Shown piece after piece: positions 22,297 through 37,996 of a stretch of DNA of 37,996 bases (position 1 is its first letter; every line of letters begins with the position of its first letter). The notes beneath the pieces were generated by a model that saw only the letters and a program-made list of their open reading frames with translations, was not told the origin of the DNA and ran no database searches. Origin of the DNA: a virus; the IMG/VR virus record IMGVR_UViG_3300023184_000287, positions 1 through 37,996 of that record. One strand, 5' to 3'. A program made the position numbers and the translations under genes.

Positions 22297-23151
22297 TCAA
22301 ATCCAATCACCAATTGACTCGTTCGCATAATTTTCTCCTAGTTCTAAACTAAATGTTTCATCGTTAAGCATCAATGCCACTACACAATAGCCAACAATGT
22401 CTCGTAACGTGTCTAGAAGGGATTCATTTTTTGCTTCAAATTTATGTGTTTTTAAATTAATTAACCGCTCAATTTTGTCAGACAAACGAACAAGAACACC
22501 CTGCATGCCAAACTTAAGAATATTTTTATGGCCATAATCATGTTGTTTTCGAGCCAACAATGTACTCATTTCACCAGAATCCCATTCATTTTTTAAACGC
22601 AACTCCTGAATTGCCTGTATTGCTATCTCTGTCCAAAGCAACGAAACAGGAGTTTCGTTTGCTTCAAACAAACATATTCTTCCAGAGTTGCACAACGTAT
22701 CCAACTTTTTGGTATCTGCTTCTTTTGGTTCTCCAGCAAATGATGCAATATGCATTACCCATTGACTAGCTGATTGTTCCCATGTGTTAACCACTCTGAC
22801 CTTCTTTCTAATTAAAGGATGCATTGTTAATAATTGCTGCAGTCTAGCATAGGCATTGTTTTTTAAACGCCATGCGTGTGGCTTGGAAACGCCAAGGCGT
22901 TTGCCAAGCTCATCAAAAGATATGAACTCACTGTTTACTGCGTTCACAATGAATTGGTCCTGTTCATTGAGTTGTTCAATGCACATGGCGACAGCTTCTC
23001 GTAACGGCTGTAATTCCTCAATTGACTCTTCTACTACATCAGATATTGAAAGCATTAACGCTTCCATCATCGTCTGTGGACGTTGTTTATTTAGATAAGA
23101 TGTGATGAAGACATTGTTGTCTTGAGGTATATCACTCTTCGACATTGCCAT
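22297..23151 (-). CDS. Sigma-region-4-like HTH fused to an Nmad1 (DUF1599)-like domain
   Basis: 284 aa with two recognisable parts. Residues about 58-108 (LNEQDQFIVNAVNSEFISFD, then ELGKRLGVSKPHAWRLKN) have the pattern of a sigma-70 region 4 helix-turn-helix. Residues about 198-268 carry RKQHDYGHKN, VRLSDKIERLINL and ESLLDTLRDIVGYCVVAL, the pattern of DUF1599/Nmad1, a domain linked in comparative genomics to phage nucleotide modification. About 125-165 is an unassigned linker domain. It overlaps the upstream nuclease gene by 20 nt. Start at 23151 or 23145 is unresolved. A DNA-binding regulator or a nucleotide-metabolism enzyme with an HTH are both possible. Confidence 0.6.
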   Translation of the reverse strand: MAMSKSDIPQDNNVFITSYLNKQRPQTMMEALMLSISDVVEESIEELQPLREAVAMCIEQLNEQDQFIVNAVNSEFISFDELGKRLGVSKPHAWRLKNNAYARLQQLLTMHPLIRKKVRVVNTWEQSASQWVMHIASFAGEPKEADTKKLDTLCNSGRICLFEANETPVSLLWTEIAIQAIQELRLKNEWDSGEMSTLLARKQHDYGHKNILKFGMQGVLVRLSDKIERLINLKTHKFEAKNESLLDTLRDIVGYCVVALMLNDETFSLELGENYANESIGDWI

Positions 23152-27206: not shown

Positions 27207-27719
27207 TTACGGATTCCATTGCTCCCATGTGTTATCGCTGTACTCAAACAATGCATATGCAGCGGTTAAGTTTAATATAGGATTAAAAAGGTCATCACAA
27301 GTTTTTATGATACCGAGCTGTTGTAAGTAGCCTTTTGCGTAATATTTATTAGGTTTACACCAAGACCAATCGTTGATTTGCATCAACCCATAGTCTTCAG
27401 AGCCATCTGTATTTCTTGTCTTGTTGTACGCCTTAGGTGCGCACCTCGATTCCCGATTAGCAATCTTGACCAATGTGTCTAATTCTTTTTTAGGCCAACC
27501 AACTAATCGAGCCAACTCCCGAACTTTTTCACACGGTGTCATAATCACGATAGGTCTTGTTGCAGACATGGTCGTTGTTGTGCTGGGGTCCGGGTCAATG
27601 TATCCTTCCGTAGAAGGATACACAGGGTCAGGTAACTCATCTGCTGGTATAGCCAACGAAAAAACCATACTGCTTACACTCATAACCGTTACAAAAATTA
27701 CTGATAATACGTATTTCAT
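27207..27719 (-). CDS. Exported lysozyme / lytic transglycosylase-like protein
   Basis: 170 aa. Residues 1-24 are a signal peptide (MKYVLSVIFVTVMSVSSMVF, SLA). A Pro/Thr linker follows (about 28-55). The catalytic domain has VKIANRESRCAPKAYNK (Glu90 is the likely acid) and EDYGLMQINDWSWC, the E...GLMQIN pattern of lysozyme-like transglycosylases, with Cys pairs. It degrades peptidoglycan. A secreted form suggests holin-independent access to the wall or a role other than final lysis. It overlaps WhiB by 4 nt and is last in its operon. Confidence 0.82.
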   Translation of the reverse strand: MKYVLSVIFVTVMSVSSMVFSLAIPADELPDPVYPSTEGYIDPDPSTTTTMSATRPIVIMTPCEKVRELARLVGWPKKELDTLVKIANRESRCAPKAYNKTRNTDGSEDYGLMQINDWSWCKPNKYYAKGYLQQLGIIKTCDDLFNPILNLTAAYALFEYSDNTWEQWNP

Positions 27720-29488: not shown

Positions 29489-29866
29489 TTATGCTTCTCC
29501 TTCCTGATTTTCTAACCTAGTAGTTACCCGCTCAACAGTTTCATCAATAAACCCAATAGTTGCAGTATTGATACCACGTTGAAATAAAGTTTTGAAACGC
29601 TCATCTTCTAAAAGAGCTGCAATAATATGTGTTTTGCTGTATTCAATAACACGCCGATAATCGAGATGTCCGGCAATATTGTTGTAATCAATACATTGTG
29701 CAACTCTGGCTATTATTGCGTCACCTATTGCATTATTGACAATAGATTGCGCATACTCTATGGTTGAATCCATAACTTTGTTAGTAATATCACGAACAAT
29801 ACGATTGTATGTTTCAACATCAACATCAAACCGAATTTGCTCTTCCGAAACTAATCTAATAGACAT
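29489..29866 (-). CDS. Hypothetical protein, 125 aa
   Basis: The start is the ATG at 29866, with GGGAGG 9 nt upstream; the frame is open to a TTG at 29893, but that lies inside the preceding gene. Mostly helical, Ile/Val/Asn-rich, with DVETYNRIVRDITNKVMDST and a C-terminal TVERVTTRLENQEGEA helix. No recognised domain; possibly a multimeric coiled protein. Confidence 0.6.
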   Translation of the reverse strand: MSIRLVSEEQIRFDVDVETYNRIVRDITNKVMDSTIEYAQSIVNNAIGDAIIARVAQCIDYNNIAGHLDYRRVIEYSKTHIIAALLEDERFKTLFQRGINTATIGFIDETVERVTTRLENQEGEA

Positions 29867-29867
29867 A

Positions 29868-29996
29868 TTACTTACCTCCCTTGATGTCTTCAACAGTTAT
29901 TTGAGCCAACACTTCCGGCCAATTAGCATCCATTCTTTTAACTTTACGACGCATTTTTTTGCGTCGTTTATAATTTATTTTATTTCTTTTTGACAT
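29868..29996 (-). CDS. Highly basic 42-aa protein
   Basis: The start at the ATG at 29996 (AAAGGG upstream) lies inside the 3' end of the amidotransferase gene, a 17-nt overlap. The N-terminal half is almost all Lys/Arg (KRNKINYKRRKKMRRKVKRM), suggesting RNA, DNA or membrane-phosphate binding. The C-terminal half (DANWPEVLAQITVEDIKGGK) is a short folded-looking segment. Its last codons contain the ribosome-binding site of the next gene. Confidence 0.55.
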   Translation of the reverse strand: MSKRNKINYKRRKKMRRKVKRMDANWPEVLAQITVEDIKGGK

Positions 29997-30987
29997 CAAC
30001 TTGCCCTTTCTTTTCATCCCACATAAGAAACGATTGCTCATACTCATAGTTATTCCAACAATTACATTTATCACCAGAACACGCTAAACATTGTTTGCAA
30101 TCACCACAATGCGTAGCACTATGGTCTAAAGCATCAACATAATAAATTGCACCACAGTTATAACAAGTAACTTTAGCAAAATCAGGATTTGTGTATTCTG
30201 TAAAAATATGAATCTTGTCTAATATGTCATCATCGTCATACAACTCATTTTCTACATACTGCATAACTTCTTGTTGACTAAAATTATGGGCGTTATAAGA
30301 GTCAAATTCTTCTTCATCATCTAAATCCCAAGTAGCAGTACCATAACCCCCGTATCCCTTTGTGTACGAACTAGCAGAAGTTGTATAACCAGAACCTGTA
30401 TAACCATAATTGACATAAGATATTGGATAAGTTTTTTTGTACGAACTATTAGACCACCACATTCCCTCGAACCAATGACCGGCAGGTTCATTAAGAATAT
30501 ACCAATCAGCTTGAGAACTAGGATTAACAGTCAACACCGCCAACTTAGAACCAGTAGCCCATGTTTCAATTTCTTTAAACGTTGTTTCGTTATCTAATGC
30601 GGTAACACCACCCAATTTTGGTAACACATATTCTGCAAACAACTTTGTATCAGAACGTTTATCATGAACAGGCATAGTTATTGGCAACATACCGTTATGA
30701 CCCAACACTGTTTTATCATCATCACCAACATTAAATGGATGACAATTATCAATAGAAGTTGTACCATGAGTTGAAATACGCCAATGAAACAACGCAGCAC
30801 CCGTATAAGTTTGTCTCAAATCAACCCACCGAAGCCACAACTTTTCAAAATCCATATCATGGTCTTTGATAATTGCAGTTTTAGCATGAATAGCGAAACC
30901 AAATCCGTCAGGATTTGATTTTGCGGCTTGACGCGCTTTATCATAATCAATATTTACACCATCAGGCATTAAAGTTAACAAACACAT
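29980..30987 (-). CDS. Class-II glutamine amidotransferase with Cys-rich C-terminal domain
   Basis: 335 aa. Residues 1-180 are a class-II (Ntn-type) glutaminase: Cys2 as the nucleophile after Met removal, NPDGFGF (25-31), HWRISTHG (68-75), NCHPF (81-85) and LGHNG (95-99). This domain frees ammonia from glutamine. A Tyr/Gly/Ser linker (about 183-215) and acidic segment follow. A Cys cluster (C275, C278, C294, C297, C300, C303, C308, C310) probably binds zinc. No synthetase domain is attached, so ammonia would be passed to the adjacent amidoligase. The start overlaps the amidoligase stop (TAATG). Confidence 0.85.
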   Translation of the reverse strand: MCLLTLMPDGVNIDYDKARQAAKSNPDGFGFAIHAKTAIIKDHDMDFEKLWLRWVDLRQTYTGAALFHWRISTHGTTSIDNCHPFNVGDDDKTVLGHNGMLPITMPVHDKRSDTKLFAEYVLPKLGGVTALDNETTFKEIETWATGSKLAVLTVNPSSQADWYILNEPAGHWFEGMWWSNSSYKKTYPISYVNYGYTGSGYTTSASSYTKGYGGYGTATWDLDDEEEFDSYNAHNFSQQEVMQYVENELYDDDDILDKIHIFTEYTNPDFAKVTCYNCGAIYYVDALDHSATHCGDCKQCLACSGDKCNCWNNYEYEQSFLMWDEKKGQVDVKKK

Positions 30988-32081
30988 TATTTATTCTCCT
31001 TTTTATCTTTACTAGGTTTATCTACCCAACCATCAGGTGCTTTAGACACATTAGGCCGCGTATGCATTTTCCAAATAAAATTTGGATAAACATCAGGAAA
31101 ACTACGAGCATAATTAGCCAAACCATCAAAATTATTAATAGCATTCTCTTTAACAACTTGATGAGCAGTAATTTCCTTTGTGTACTCAAACAAACAATAC
31201 ACAAACTCGATATAAGACAACAAAGTCTCATAACGCAAAGAAGGTCTAAAAATACGCAACTCATGCGTATGCTCATTCAACCTATTAACAGCCAAATTAC
31301 GGTAAGTTTGACCGGGAACATAATCACCATTCTTGCGAACACCTTTAGCAACTTCCATCAAAGTTGGCTTAGGCCCATGCCAATACTCATCACTAGCACC
31401 AAGAAAAGCATCCAAATCATATTGCGCATACTGAGAATTACGACCAACAAAATTGATTAAAGTTTCTTTATTTCTAAAAATGAAATACAAAAACTTCATC
31501 TCATGTTGAGGATTGATAAATGAATTTTTAGATATATGGATGTGTTGGCCACAATTAGATGTAGTCCATGCACGATAACCTTTTTTACGCAAATAACGCA
31601 AAGACTCACGAATAGACTCTGTGTTATTGTGAACAAAATTAAGCGACATTGGATGCGAAACCATTTCGAAACCATTACGCAAAGAACAATCATCTTTAAC
31701 ATAAATTAATCCATTAGTCAAATTACTTACATAACTTGCATCCCTGTTTAACGAACACCCACCATTGTCTTTATCTTCAGTTTCAAGTTCAATACCAACA
31801 TAAGGTTTAATTTTTGTGGCATTAGAGTTCATGGATACTGTTGTGTTATTATCAACAAAATCCCAAAACCTTGGAGTAGGATGATAACCATAAGAATTGA
31901 TTGAACTCTCATTATCATCACTTGAATTGTCATCATCTGATTCATAATCAGAATCAGAATCCATATTGTCATAACAACCTTGACAATACCAACTGCCACC
32001 AGAATACACTGCATCATTTCTGTCTACTGTGTCGGAACAATCCCAACAATCGATAGGACCTCTATTTTCTATACCTGGCAT
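30987..32081 (-). CDS. Amidoligase (COOH-NH2 ligase) with N-terminal zinc ribbon
   Basis: 364 aa. Residues 12-36 form a zinc ribbon (Cys12, Cys15, Cys33, Cys36). A very acidic disordered linker (about 40-60, Asp/Ser/Asn) follows. The glutamine-synthetase-like amidoligase fold spans about 90-300, with GIELETE (96-102), CSLRNGFEMVSHPMS (132-146), CGQHIHIS (177-184) and ELRIFRPSLR (274-283) as metal/ATP-binding strands. Such enzymes join an amine or ammonia to a carboxylate of a peptide or protein. The partner amidotransferase is directly downstream and coupled. Ribosome-binding site AAAGGGG. Substrate unknown. Confidence 0.85.
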   Translation of the reverse strand: MPGIENRGPIDCWDCSDTVDRNDAVYSGGSWYCQGCYDNMDSDSDYESDDDNSSDDNESSINSYGYHPTPRFWDFVDNNTTVSMNSNATKIKPYVGIELETEDKDNGGCSLNRDASYVSNLTNGLIYVKDDCSLRNGFEMVSHPMSLNFVHNNTESIRESLRYLRKKGYRAWTTSNCGQHIHISKNSFINPQHEMKFLYFIFRNKETLINFVGRNSQYAQYDLDAFLGASDEYWHGPKPTLMEVAKGVRKNGDYVPGQTYRNLAVNRLNEHTHELRIFRPSLRYETLLSYIEFVYCLFEYTKEITAHQVVKENAINNFDGLANYARSFPDVYPNFIWKMHTRPNVSKAPDGWVDKPSKDKKENK

Positions 32082-32120
32082 ATATACCCCTTTGTTTATC
32101 TAATGTTTATATGATGATGA

Positions 32121-32160
32121 CATTTGCTTGTCCCCGCGGAACGCGGGGGACAAGCAAATG
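32121..32160 (-). terminator. 18-bp GC-rich hairpin between the 79-aa gene and amidoligase
   Basis: Arms 32121-32138 and 32142-32160 pair over 18 bp (one bulged G), loop GAA. It begins 2 nt after the stop of the 79-aa gene. There is no U tract on the transcribed strand. The stem resembles that at 33105-33132. Confidence 0.7.
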
Positions 32161-33052: not shown

Positions 33053-33104
33053 TATGTTCTCCTTTCAAGAGAATCTATTTTTTGTTTATTACTATTTTCT
33101 TTGA

Positions 33105-33132
33105 CTTGCCCCCGCGCACGCGGGGGGGCAAG
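33105..33132 (-). terminator. GC-rich hairpin after the 108-aa gene
   Basis: CTTGCCCCCGCG (33105-33116), CA loop, then CGCGGGGGGGCAAG (33119-33132) with two extra Gs. It starts 9 nt after the stop of the 33142-33468 gene and has no U tract. The stem matches the 32121-32160 hairpin except for compensatory T-A to C-G change. Confidence 0.7.
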
Positions 33133-33141
33133 GCGAAGAAC

Positions 33142-33888: not shown

Positions 33889-33948
33889 AAACCAATCAAT
33901 TAAAACCATAACCAACACAGGAACCATAAAAGCCCAACCGATATTCAT
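33874..33948 (-). CDS. Candidate 24-aa membrane micro-protein
   Basis: MNIGWAFMVPVLVMVLIDWF then RGGF. The ATG overlaps the stop of the DUF4326 gene (TGATG) and follows AAAGGGGGTGAG, an excellent ribosome-binding site. The peptide is one hydrophobic helix with a basic end. The stop lies inside the leader A structure. Very short genes are easily accidental, but site and hydrophobicity favour it. Confidence 0.45.
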   Translation of the reverse strand: MNIGWAFMVPVLVMVLIDWFRGGF

Positions 33949-34214
33949 CACTCACCCCCTTTCTCAACAAATTCAACCAATACATCAGCGTGGCACGCTT
34001 TAGGAGCACACCAACACACCAAATCCTTACCTTTCAATTCACCTAATTGCTTCAGCAATTCTGGTGAATTCAAGAGATATTGACGAAACTCGGCAATAAC
34101 TCTTGCTCTATCACCTTCACCACGCATAGTGAATGGATTACCCCACTTACTTGGGCGACCCACATACACAGCAGAGTGTGGCACATTCGACTCTCGTTTA
34201 TTGAATACCTTCAC
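33948..34214 (-). CDS. DUF4326 family protein, 88 aa
   Basis: The start is GTG at 34214, preceded 5 nt upstream by AGAAAGAAGG, which decides the start. The family pattern is clear: VYVGRPSKWGNPFTM, FRQYLLNSPELLKQLGELKG, KDLVCWCAPKACHADVL. Several Cys and His at the C terminus (CWC..., CHAD) may bind metal. DUF4326 occurs widely in phages and bacteria; its function is not established. Confidence 0.82.
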   Translation of the reverse strand: MKVFNKRESNVPHSAVYVGRPSKWGNPFTMRGEGDRARVIAEFRQYLLNSPELLKQLGELKGKDLVCWCAPKACHADVLVEFVEKGGE

Positions 34215-34249: not shown

Positions 34250-34277
34250 CCCAACCCCACACGATTGTGGGGTTGGG
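34250..34277 (-). terminator. 12-bp perfect hairpin after the 71-aa zinc-ribbon gene
   Basis: CCCAACCCCACA (34250-34261), loop CGAT, TGTGGGGTTGGG (34266-34277). It begins 8 nt after the stop at 34286. On the transcribed strand only three U residues follow, so it is a weak intrinsic terminator by the classic rule. Confidence 0.72.
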
Positions 34278-36702: not shown

Positions 36703-37996
36703 GTGCCAAGACCGCACGCACCTCGTACTAGGGTTTCAACATATCTAAGCGACTGGATTAGTCGTGTTAATACTGTTGATTATCTCGTAGTTGCTGGTGG
36801 CGGTTCAGGCGGTCAAGAAAACTTTACTAACGGTTTTGCTGGCGGTGGCGGTGCTGGAGGATTACTTTATGGCACAACAAAAATAGTTTCAGGTTCTCCA
36901 TACACGATTACTGTCGGAACTGGTGGTGCACAAGTCAGTGCAGGTTCGGTTGGCAACGATGGTTCTTCCTCATCAATAATCGGTATTGGTGTATCTTTTT
37001 CCGCAACAGGCGGTGGCGGTGGTGGCGGAGGCGGTAGCGGTGTTTGTAGTGGTCGCAACGGTGGTTCGGGTGGCGGTGCATCAGCAGTAACAAGTTCAAT
37101 AGCAGGAACAGGAGTTAGCGGTCAGGGTAACGCAGGCGGTTCACAAACAACTAGTGCACCGTCAGGTGGTGGCGGTGCTGGAACAGTTGGCTCGTCAGGG
37201 TATAGAACCTCAGTTGCCGAAGGTGGCAACGGTGGTGACGGTATTGCAATAAACATTACTGGCTCAAATGTTTATTACGCAGGTGGTGGTGGTGGTGGCA
37301 AACAAAACACGGGAGAAGGAACAGCGTCAGGCACAGGCGGTTTAGGTGGTGGTGGAAATGGTGGCATAAATAGCCCTGATACGAGTCCACAGGCTGGTGG
37401 TGTAAATAAAGGTGGCGGTGGTGGTGGTGGAACAAACGGTAATAGTTATTTGATTGGTGCTGCAGGCGGCTCAGGTGTGGTCATTTTAAGTTATCAAAAA
37501 AATATGACTCTGACTATCGGTTCAGGCTTAACATACACTTCTGCTTCGGTTGGTACTCGTACCGTAATAACTTTTACTGCTGGCACTGGTTCTGTTACTT
37601 TTAGTTTTGCTGATACCTCACCGTATGCAAGGTCAGGATATTATGCTGGTGGCTTTAACGCTACATATTTGACAGGAGTAGATAAAATTGCATTCCCTGT
37701 AGATAGTAAAACTGTTTCAAGTGCAGTTCTAAGTCCTGCTCGTGCCAATGCAGGTGGCTTTGCTAACTCAGGTGTCGCTGGGTATATTGCTGGTGGTAAT
37801 AGCCCTGATTTTTCTTCAATACAAAAAATTACTTTTCCTGCCGATAGCACAAGCATTATTAGTGCAACTTTAACTACAGCAAAAAATGCTTGTTTTGCAA
37901 TGGCTAACTCAGGTGTCGCTGGTTATGTTGCTGGTGGATACGATTCAAATTACTCCGCCACAGTTGACAAAATCACTTTCCCTGCGGATACGAAAA
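36703..37996 (+). CDS. Glycine-rich tail protein with propeller-like repeats (partial)
   Basis: No ATG is near; GTG at 36703 (AGG 6-8 nt upstream) is the best start, and the frame runs open to the window end (431 codons, no stop). After 25 residues comes the phage glycine-rich domain (DYLVVAGGGSGGQENF..., about 25-265, with many GGGGG runs). From about residue 310 there are repeated blades: GYYAGGF..., GVAGYIAGG...KITFPADS, GVAGYVAGG...KITFPADT, period 47 residues. Glycine-rich domain then kelch-like blades is a common tail-fibre/host-recognition layout. The C terminus lies beyond the window. Confidence 0.75.
   Translation, partial: MPRPHAPRTRVSTYLSDWISRVNTVDYLVVAGGGSGGQENFTNGFAGGGGAGGLLYGTTKIVSGSPYTITVGTGGAQVSAGSVGNDGSSSSIIGIGVSFSATGGGGGGGGGSGVCSGRNGGSGGGASAVTSSIAGTGVSGQGNAGGSQTTSAPSGGGGAGTVGSSGYRTSVAEGGNGGDGIAINITGSNVYYAGGGGGGKQNTGEGTASGTGGLGGGGNGGINSPDTSPQAGGVNKGGGGGGGTNGNSYLIGAAGGSGVVILSYQKNMTLTIGSGLTYTSASVGTRTVITFTAGTGSVTFSFADTSPYARSGYYAGGFNATYLTGVDKIAFPVDSKTVSSAVLSPARANAGGFANSGVAGYIAGGNSPDFSSIQKITFPADSTSIISATLTTAKNACFAMANSGVAGYVAGGYDSNYSATVDKITFPADTK
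37762..37922 (+). repeat. 141-bp-period blade duplication in the tail protein
   Basis: GCTAACTCAGGTGTCGCTGG is exactly repeated at 37762-37781 and 37903-37922, 141 bp apart (47 codons). The flanking protein sequence is similar but diverged, so this is a duplicated propeller blade with one conserved nucleotide core. Confidence 0.85.

Follow-up and report, generated by a model that had tools for sequence, protein, structure and literature searches.

What do an amidoligase and a glutamine amidotransferase (GATase) encoded side by side on a phage genome do together, and what directs them to their target? The question is raised by the virus record IMGVR_UViG_3300023184_000287 (37,996 bases; positions 1 to 37,996, hereafter the window), the minus strand of which encodes a 364-amino-acid amidoligase (30987..32081) and, directly downstream, a 335-amino-acid class-II GATase (29980..30987). 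Phage pairs of this kind were remarked on no later than 2009-2012, are widespread in hundreds of phages and in some gut-bacterial mobile elements, where the two genes usually occur together, and have been assigned no substrate in the cited literature. We consider it somewhat probable (about 0.55) that the pair is a two-subunit amidating enzyme that depends on glutamine and ATP and has a finger-directed choice of substrate, this estimate applying to the statement as a whole. The gene pair, the predicted folds, the invariant catalytic and near-invariant zinc residues, and the near-obligate association of the two genes were computed, and from them we infer the reaction, the assembly of a complex, the binding of zinc, the class of substrate, and the timing.

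A sequence-only reading of the same stretch had assigned the proteins to the amidoligase and class-II amidotransferase classes, and the open reading frames (ORFs), coordinates, motifs, two CxxC units, acidic linker, Cys2, and eight-Cys tail that it listed are all present. Models were predicted with AlphaFold2 and compared with solved structures using Foldseek and VIA-align; the predicted folds, glutamine-synthetase-like for the ligase and N-terminal nucleophile (Ntn) for the GATase, agree with those assignments. The amidoligase matches the Pfam family PF12224 (Amidoligase_2) with E=4e-6 and 27.3 bits, above the curated cut-off of 22, and the unnamed PHROG family phrog_16683 with E=4e-31. Its model has a mean predicted local distance difference test score (pLDDT) of 88.1, with low values at residues 47-54, within an acidic Asp/Ser linker (residues about 47-60, 31902..31943; all features of the two proteins lie on the minus strand), and aligns with 1tt4 (VIA Z 12.0, root-mean-square deviation (rmsd) 4.1 over 224 residues), YbdK 1r8g (Z 11.9), and human glutamine synthetase (Z 11.4, 186 residues aligned). 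Its solved neighbors comprise YbdK, a Salmonella homolog of YbdK, glutamine synthetases, and plant glutamate-cysteine ligase, with Z of about 10-12 over 170-230 residues among the matches listed, and the pupylation enzymes Dop and PafA are weaker matches.

In viral contigs, profile searches retrieved 436 ligase and 313 GATase relatives, from which 80 of each were taken for comparison; conservation was counted over 82 ligase and 65 GATase diverse homologs from viral contigs, and the same alignments were supplied to AlphaFold2. In the ligase, Gly96, Glu98, Glu100, Lys129, Asp131, Glu139, His180, His182, Arg214, Ala264, Asn266, Glu274, and Arg276 are invariant (82/82). They include Gly96, Glu98, and Glu100 of GIELETE (residues 96-102, 31776..31796), the predicted metal/ATP site corresponding to ExE of glutamine synthetase, Glu139 of GFEMVSHP (137-144, 31650..31673), His180 and His182 of CGQHIHIS (177-184, 31530..31553), and Glu274 and Arg276 of ELRIF (274-278, 31248..31262), which opens the longer ELRIFRPSLR stretch (274-283). 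We take the order and residues of these motifs to match the ExE, E, HxH, and ExR pattern of glutamine synthetase. The model allows a glutamine-synthetase/gamma-glutamyl-ligase fold to be assigned with confidence, and with curated score, fold, and active-site residues all in agreement, membership in Amidoligase_2, that is, among the glutamine-synthetase-fold COOH-NH2 ligases with predicted ATP-dependent amide formation, is nearly certain.

The GATase begins with Met-Cys, and its Ntn glutaminase domain (residues 1-186, 30430..30987) carries Cys2 and the motifs NPDGFG, FHWRIST.G, NCHPF, HNG, and SDT. The sequence-only reading had singled out Cys2 together with the acidic residues of GIELETE, and both proved conserved throughout: Cys2 in 65/65 GATases, Glu98 and Glu100 in 82/82 ligases. 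Also invariant among the 65 GATases are Asn25, Gly28, Gly30, His68, Arg70, Thr73, Gly75, His83-Pro84-Phe85, His97-Asn98-Gly99, Asp113, and Lys148, a set which presumably matches the Cys1, Arg, HNG, and Asp glutamine site of class-II glutaminases. The protein matches the unnamed PHROG family phrog_25883 (E=2e-30), and its model (mean pLDDT 84.7, residues 189-233 disordered) aligns over the catalytic domain with the GlmS glutaminase 3ooj (VIA Z 14.2, rmsd 3.8 over 173 residues), with EgtC, with PurF, and with further class-II amidotransferases such as 1te5. We are confident, from the model, that it has an Ntn glutaminase fold and belongs to the class-II superfamily; taken alone, the enzyme classes of both proteins are nearly certain.

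The two genes appear to form one unit. The last A of the ligase stop codon TAA is the first A of the GATase ATG, and because of this one-base stop/start overlap (TAATG) translational coupling is plausible. Homologs with the same ligase-then-GATase order share 45-62% identity with the window pair. Among viral ligases made non-redundant at 85% (n=87), a homologous GATase lies directly downstream on the same strand in 82, and none shows the opposite order, in support of the partnership proposed by the sequence-only reading. The gap between the two genes has a median of 12 bp, counted over a set that includes repeat copies of the same contigs. Fusions of ligase and GATase, sought among the 87 viral ligases as proof of a complex, were not found. 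In three of the five exceptions (two on contig L013, one on L023), a GATase_6, which is another class-II subfamily, stands next to the ligase, and in a fourth (L020) a diverged GATase is annotated directly after it. This exchange, in which GATase_6 takes the place of the GATase beside a retained ligase, is the strongest argument that the ligase requires glutaminase activity itself, beyond mere conservation of a neighbor. A search of bacterial genomes returned 502 ligase matches, and in 73 of the 80 loci sampled from them a GATase adjoins the amidoligase, with several of the seven exceptions lying near contig ends. In many phages, as in many bacterial loci, it is therefore the pair alone that is conserved as a unit, with both active sites strictly conserved and the zinc-finger array as the variable part.

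The most likely chemistry of the pair is the transfer of glutamine-derived ammonia onto a carboxylate. The GATase would shed its initiator Met, exposing Cys2, which would hydrolyze glutamine to release ammonia; the ExE/HxH/ExR site of the amidoligase, with ATP and Mg, would activate the substrate carboxylate as an acyl phosphate, from which ammonia would displace the phosphate to give an amide. The predicted treble clef of the ligase and the eight-Cys tail of the GATase may dock the enzyme to a macromolecule that serves as substrate or keep the subunits together, and the leading substrate candidates would be a precursor peptide of peptidoglycan and a protein of the host.

Both proteins probably bind zinc, judging from the pattern and conservation of their Cys residues. 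The ligase carries an N-terminal four-Cys unit (CWDC...CQGC; Cys12, Cys15, Cys33, and Cys36; residues 12-36, 31974..32048), in which Cys12 and Cys15 are each kept in 80, Cys33 in 81, and Cys36 in 77 of the 82 homologs; His replaces Cys36 in 4/82, as a metal ligand would allow. The sequence-only reading had seen zinc modules in both proteins, and the conserved four-Cys unit and eight-Cys tail agree with this, but its label of zinc ribbon for the ligase was dropped: in the model a CxxC precedes a beta-hairpin (24-33) and a helix (34-46) begins at the second CxxC, and the N-terminal region of the family profile matches LIM proteins (best E=0.0045), so that the unit looks like a LIM-like treble clef (half LIM). 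The GATase tail (residues 275-310, 30058..30165) has Cys at positions 275, 278, 294, 297, 300, 303, 308, and 310 and is predicted to hold two metal ions; each Cys is kept in 61-65 of the 65 homologs, and four CxxC motifs occur in 62/68 tails. The structural matches to solved folds leave the zinc parts of both proteins uncovered. The number of CxxC motifs ahead of the ligase core ranges from about two to nine across most family members, the window ligase having one four-Cys unit. Some relatives lack the zinc parts, which therefore do not belong to the chemistry; their role is most simply read as docking on a substrate or as contact between the subunits.

Several observations weigh against a finger-directed two-subunit amidating enzyme. 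The ligase of Clostridioides phage AR1086-1, the fifth exception, has no adjoining GATase; a nucleotidyltransferase-like ORF, recognized by inspection of its sequence, occupies that place, and a search of the AR1086-1 genome with the gut-type GATase of L013 gave no matches. Zinc parts are missing from the AR1086-1 ligase and from the GATases of phages MEP402 and MW202733. The GATase matches Pfam GATase_4 (PF13230) with E=2.8e-4 and 20.3 bits, under the curated cut-off of 23, and is therefore assigned at superfamily level only. For both proteins, the TM-scores of the whole model against solved relatives are only 0.3-0.4, because no more than the core is shared with them. The evolutionary distances of the pair remain correlated after correction for helicase and primase (mirror-tree partial r 0.60, against 0.34 for helicase-primase), which is supportive but weak, because adjacent genes share a history and the correlation may reflect linkage. 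Finally, EgtC, a gamma-glutamyl hydrolase, ties with GlmS on the Ntn domain (Z 13.5 against 14.2).

This last match raises the alternative that the ligase joins glutamate, another amino acid, or a peptide to its substrate and that the Ntn partner is a gamma-glutamyl hydrolase removing the addition later, as EgtA and EgtC do in ergothioneine synthesis. YbdK and plant glutamate-cysteine ligase, which stand among the closest solved folds of the ligase, would suit such a reaction as EgtC does the partner, but the exchange of the partner for GATase_6 is easier to understand if free ammonia is supplied, and no other biosynthetic gene recurs beside the pair. EgtB, EgtD, and EgtE were absent from the window proteins scanned, a scan that included no dedicated search for ergothioneine genes. 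On balance we regard ligation and removal of this kind as unlikely and retain amidation by glutamine-derived ammonia.

Precedents for the pair exist in phages, as the sequence-only reading had stated at class level, and although it named neither, the pair is already published in mycobacteriophage Marvin and in OM43 phages. In Marvin (Marvinvirus; host M. smegmatis), gp105 and gp106, already annotated as glutamine amidotransferase domain proteins, share with the window pair the gene order, the adjacency, the CxxC units before the ligase core, and the Cys-rich GATase tail; identity is about 31% in the ligase core and 37% in the GATase domain, the Marvin ligase is longer, and the Marvin genes are 79 bp apart, whereas those of the window overlap. 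By these features the window pair is classed as a Marvin-type stand-alone pair. A stand-alone pair with a variable finger array turns target recognition into the question to be asked, and Marvin, as a tractable phage of M. smegmatis, makes a clean experiment possible. The OM43 phages MEP401 and MEP402 (PMC10580990) and the Manatee Spring podovirus MW202733 likewise encode a ligase followed directly by a class-II GATase, in MEP402 at the start of an early block; the OM43 and MW202733 GATases lack the eight-Cys tail present in the window. PMC10580990 cites the Marvin paper for the pair in that phage and Iyer 2009 for a cell-wall change in phiEco32 acting against superinfection.

Kinship with LUZ24 and phiEco32 was also missed in the sequence-only reading. 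In the LUZ24/phiEco32/PSA-HP1 cassette, an amidoligase is followed by a class-II GATase just upstream of primase/helicase, as in the window, and the podovirus peptidoglycan modification cassette is described as a gamma-glutamyl amidoligase, a second amidoligase, an ATP-grasp protein, a cyclotransferase, and a GATase (PMC5498523). The extra genes of the LUZ24/phiEco32 cassette (PF14395 ligase, ATP-grasp ligase, and gamma-glutamyl cyclotransferase PF06094) are absent from the window, and searches for PF06094, PF14395, and the LUZ24 ATP-grasp found none in 48 pair- or ligase-bearing records, the window included and some of them fragments, with LUZ24 and phiEco32 positive as controls. Membership of the window pair in this cassette was accordingly rejected. 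The LUZ24 and phiEco32 ligases, which have little sequence similarity to that of the window, form a separate tree branch (100/100 split), long branches blurring any finer placement; the window pair is a reduced relative of the cassette.

The same chemistry could act on the D-Glu or diaminopimelate carboxylates of peptidoglycan precursor peptides, the wall change serving superinfection exclusion or lysis timing. This substrate, which overlaps with the reading preferred here, has been proposed for phage amidoligase/GATase genes (PMC5498523; PMC11318856, cited for the peptidoglycan modification cassette; and PMC10580990), the precursors are synthesized in the cytosol, the compartment expected for the enzyme, and peptidoglycan is present in all of the hosts, which range across mycobacteria, OM43 Proteobacteria, and Firmicutes. 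However, the wall-peptide genes of the cassette are missing from the window and the 47 other records, a low-molecular-weight precursor offers no obvious need for zinc-finger arrays, and the wall hypothesis in the cited literature rests on no experiment; we therefore hold a wall substrate to be a real but tentative possibility. Peptidoglycan amidation by MurT/GatD employs a class-I glutaminase. The window pair is not of that type, its glutaminase being class II and its ligase having the glutamine synthetase fold; MurT/GatD is Mur-ligase related, according to PMC3267633.

Bacterial loci beside mobile-element genes, likewise overlooked in the sequence-only reading, provide a further comparison. 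Many of the sampled bacterial loci are from Ruminococcus; there, a related amidoligase with LIM-like fingers adjoins a class-II GATase as in the window, but the GATase is of the GATase_6 subfamily, a DUF960-like gene lies upstream in 55 loci, and relaxase, resolvase, or integrase genes take the place of phage genes, which suggests that these loci are integrative mobile elements rather than phages. The cassette of DUF960, LIM-like amidoligase, and GATase_6 (L175-L253, e.g., L234:7438-10813) occurs in several copies per genome in R. flavefaciens, and DUF960 might supply a third component or itself serve as the substrate. A more specific proposal is that phages possess a dedicated post-translational amidation, in which varying LIM-like finger arrays bring a common core to host proteins such as transcription, translation, or defense factors, and that bacterial mobile elements use related pairs in the same conflict; we put this forward as a doubtful idea.

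Duplicated and diverged ligases were also observed. On contig L013 there are two amidoligase/GATase pairs, separated by about 10 kb (L013:2175-4235 and L013:11845-12978 onward). In about a dozen phage loci an additional amidoligase-like protein, which is shorter, lacks zinc units, forms its own clade, and is absent from the window, is encoded upstream of the pair (L024:4508-5221, L049:3118-3954, L065:3062-3937, L082:6682-7539, L123:5596-6444, and L162:3635-4429).

The window encodes a terminase, portal, capsid, helicase, primase, exonuclease, and WhiB-like protein, the last of which suggests an actinobacterial host; a nucleotide search of its first 25 kb against phage records gave no matches. 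The pair heads a block leading to the exonuclease, helicase, and primase, and likewise lies upstream of primase/helicase in LUZ24, phiEco32, and MEP402, which suggests an early function. Neighbors were clustered over the 87 loci, the clusters being named from their window members and inspected by sequence only: a small WhiB-like protein recurs in 50 loci, exonuclease in 37, helicase in 36, and primase in 35, along with small proteins of unknown function. These are housekeeping phage genes, and none names a substrate.

Phages use amidotransferases in base modification, and the pair might accordingly form an amide on a modified base or act on nucleotides. Nucleic acid is a possible ligand of zinc fingers, the pair sits close to the replication block, and two window proteins show matches of possible relevance: a DUF4326 protein (E=6e-27; 33948-34214, minus strand), upstream of the pair on the same strand, and a 284-amino-acid protein (22297-23151, minus strand) with a sigma-factor-like N-terminal part and, at the C-terminus, a match below threshold to 'nucleotide modification associated domain 1'. 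Nevertheless, no thymidylate-synthase-like, QueC/TGT-like, or hydroxymethylase gene was detected among the window proteins searched, and none recurs among the neighbor clusters inspected by sequence, so we judge base modification improbable. Less probable still is an auxiliary metabolic role in host nitrogen handling; such a role was proposed for Phage-ZRK32 (PMC10945688) but rests there on whole-phage growth effects, and LIM-like finger arrays in a conserved two-gene unit on small phages are unlike bulk nitrogen metabolism.

Downstream of the pair, a 42-amino-acid basic micro-protein (29868..29996, minus strand) overlaps the GATase end. The sequence-only reading had given it a targeting role; the ORF is real, and similar ORFs are recognizable in at least four loci closely related to the window (L016, L030, L109, and L111), but the role was not supported, as most other loci have the pair without it. 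Because the scan for such ORFs crudely took the first ATG only and required at least 20% Lys/Arg, over 30 loci, absence elsewhere is unproven; the micro-protein, seen only in close relatives, appears to be restricted to one clade, the pair doing without it elsewhere. Next in the operon is a 134-amino-acid protein (29489..29893, minus strand) whose family is common to 32 compared loci by neighbor clustering. A lysozyme/transglycosylase-like protein (27207-27719, minus strand; family in 29 loci) is encoded within the replication block, with the WhiB-like gene on one side and the exonuclease on the other, and not among the structural genes.

Upstream, a promoter scan gave no excess above shuffled sequences, and the gap before the amidoligase start contains a G+C-rich hairpin (32119..32160, minus strand; -30.1 kcal/mol, z -8.6), a possible terminator/attenuator or RNA-processing element. 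Further G+C-rich hairpins lie between early genes at 33100-33134 and 34250-34277, in an otherwise A+T-rich region. Near the right end, outside the gene blocks studied, GGTGGCGGTGG-type repeats, Gly-rich if translated, occupy 36777-37430 and 37762-37937.

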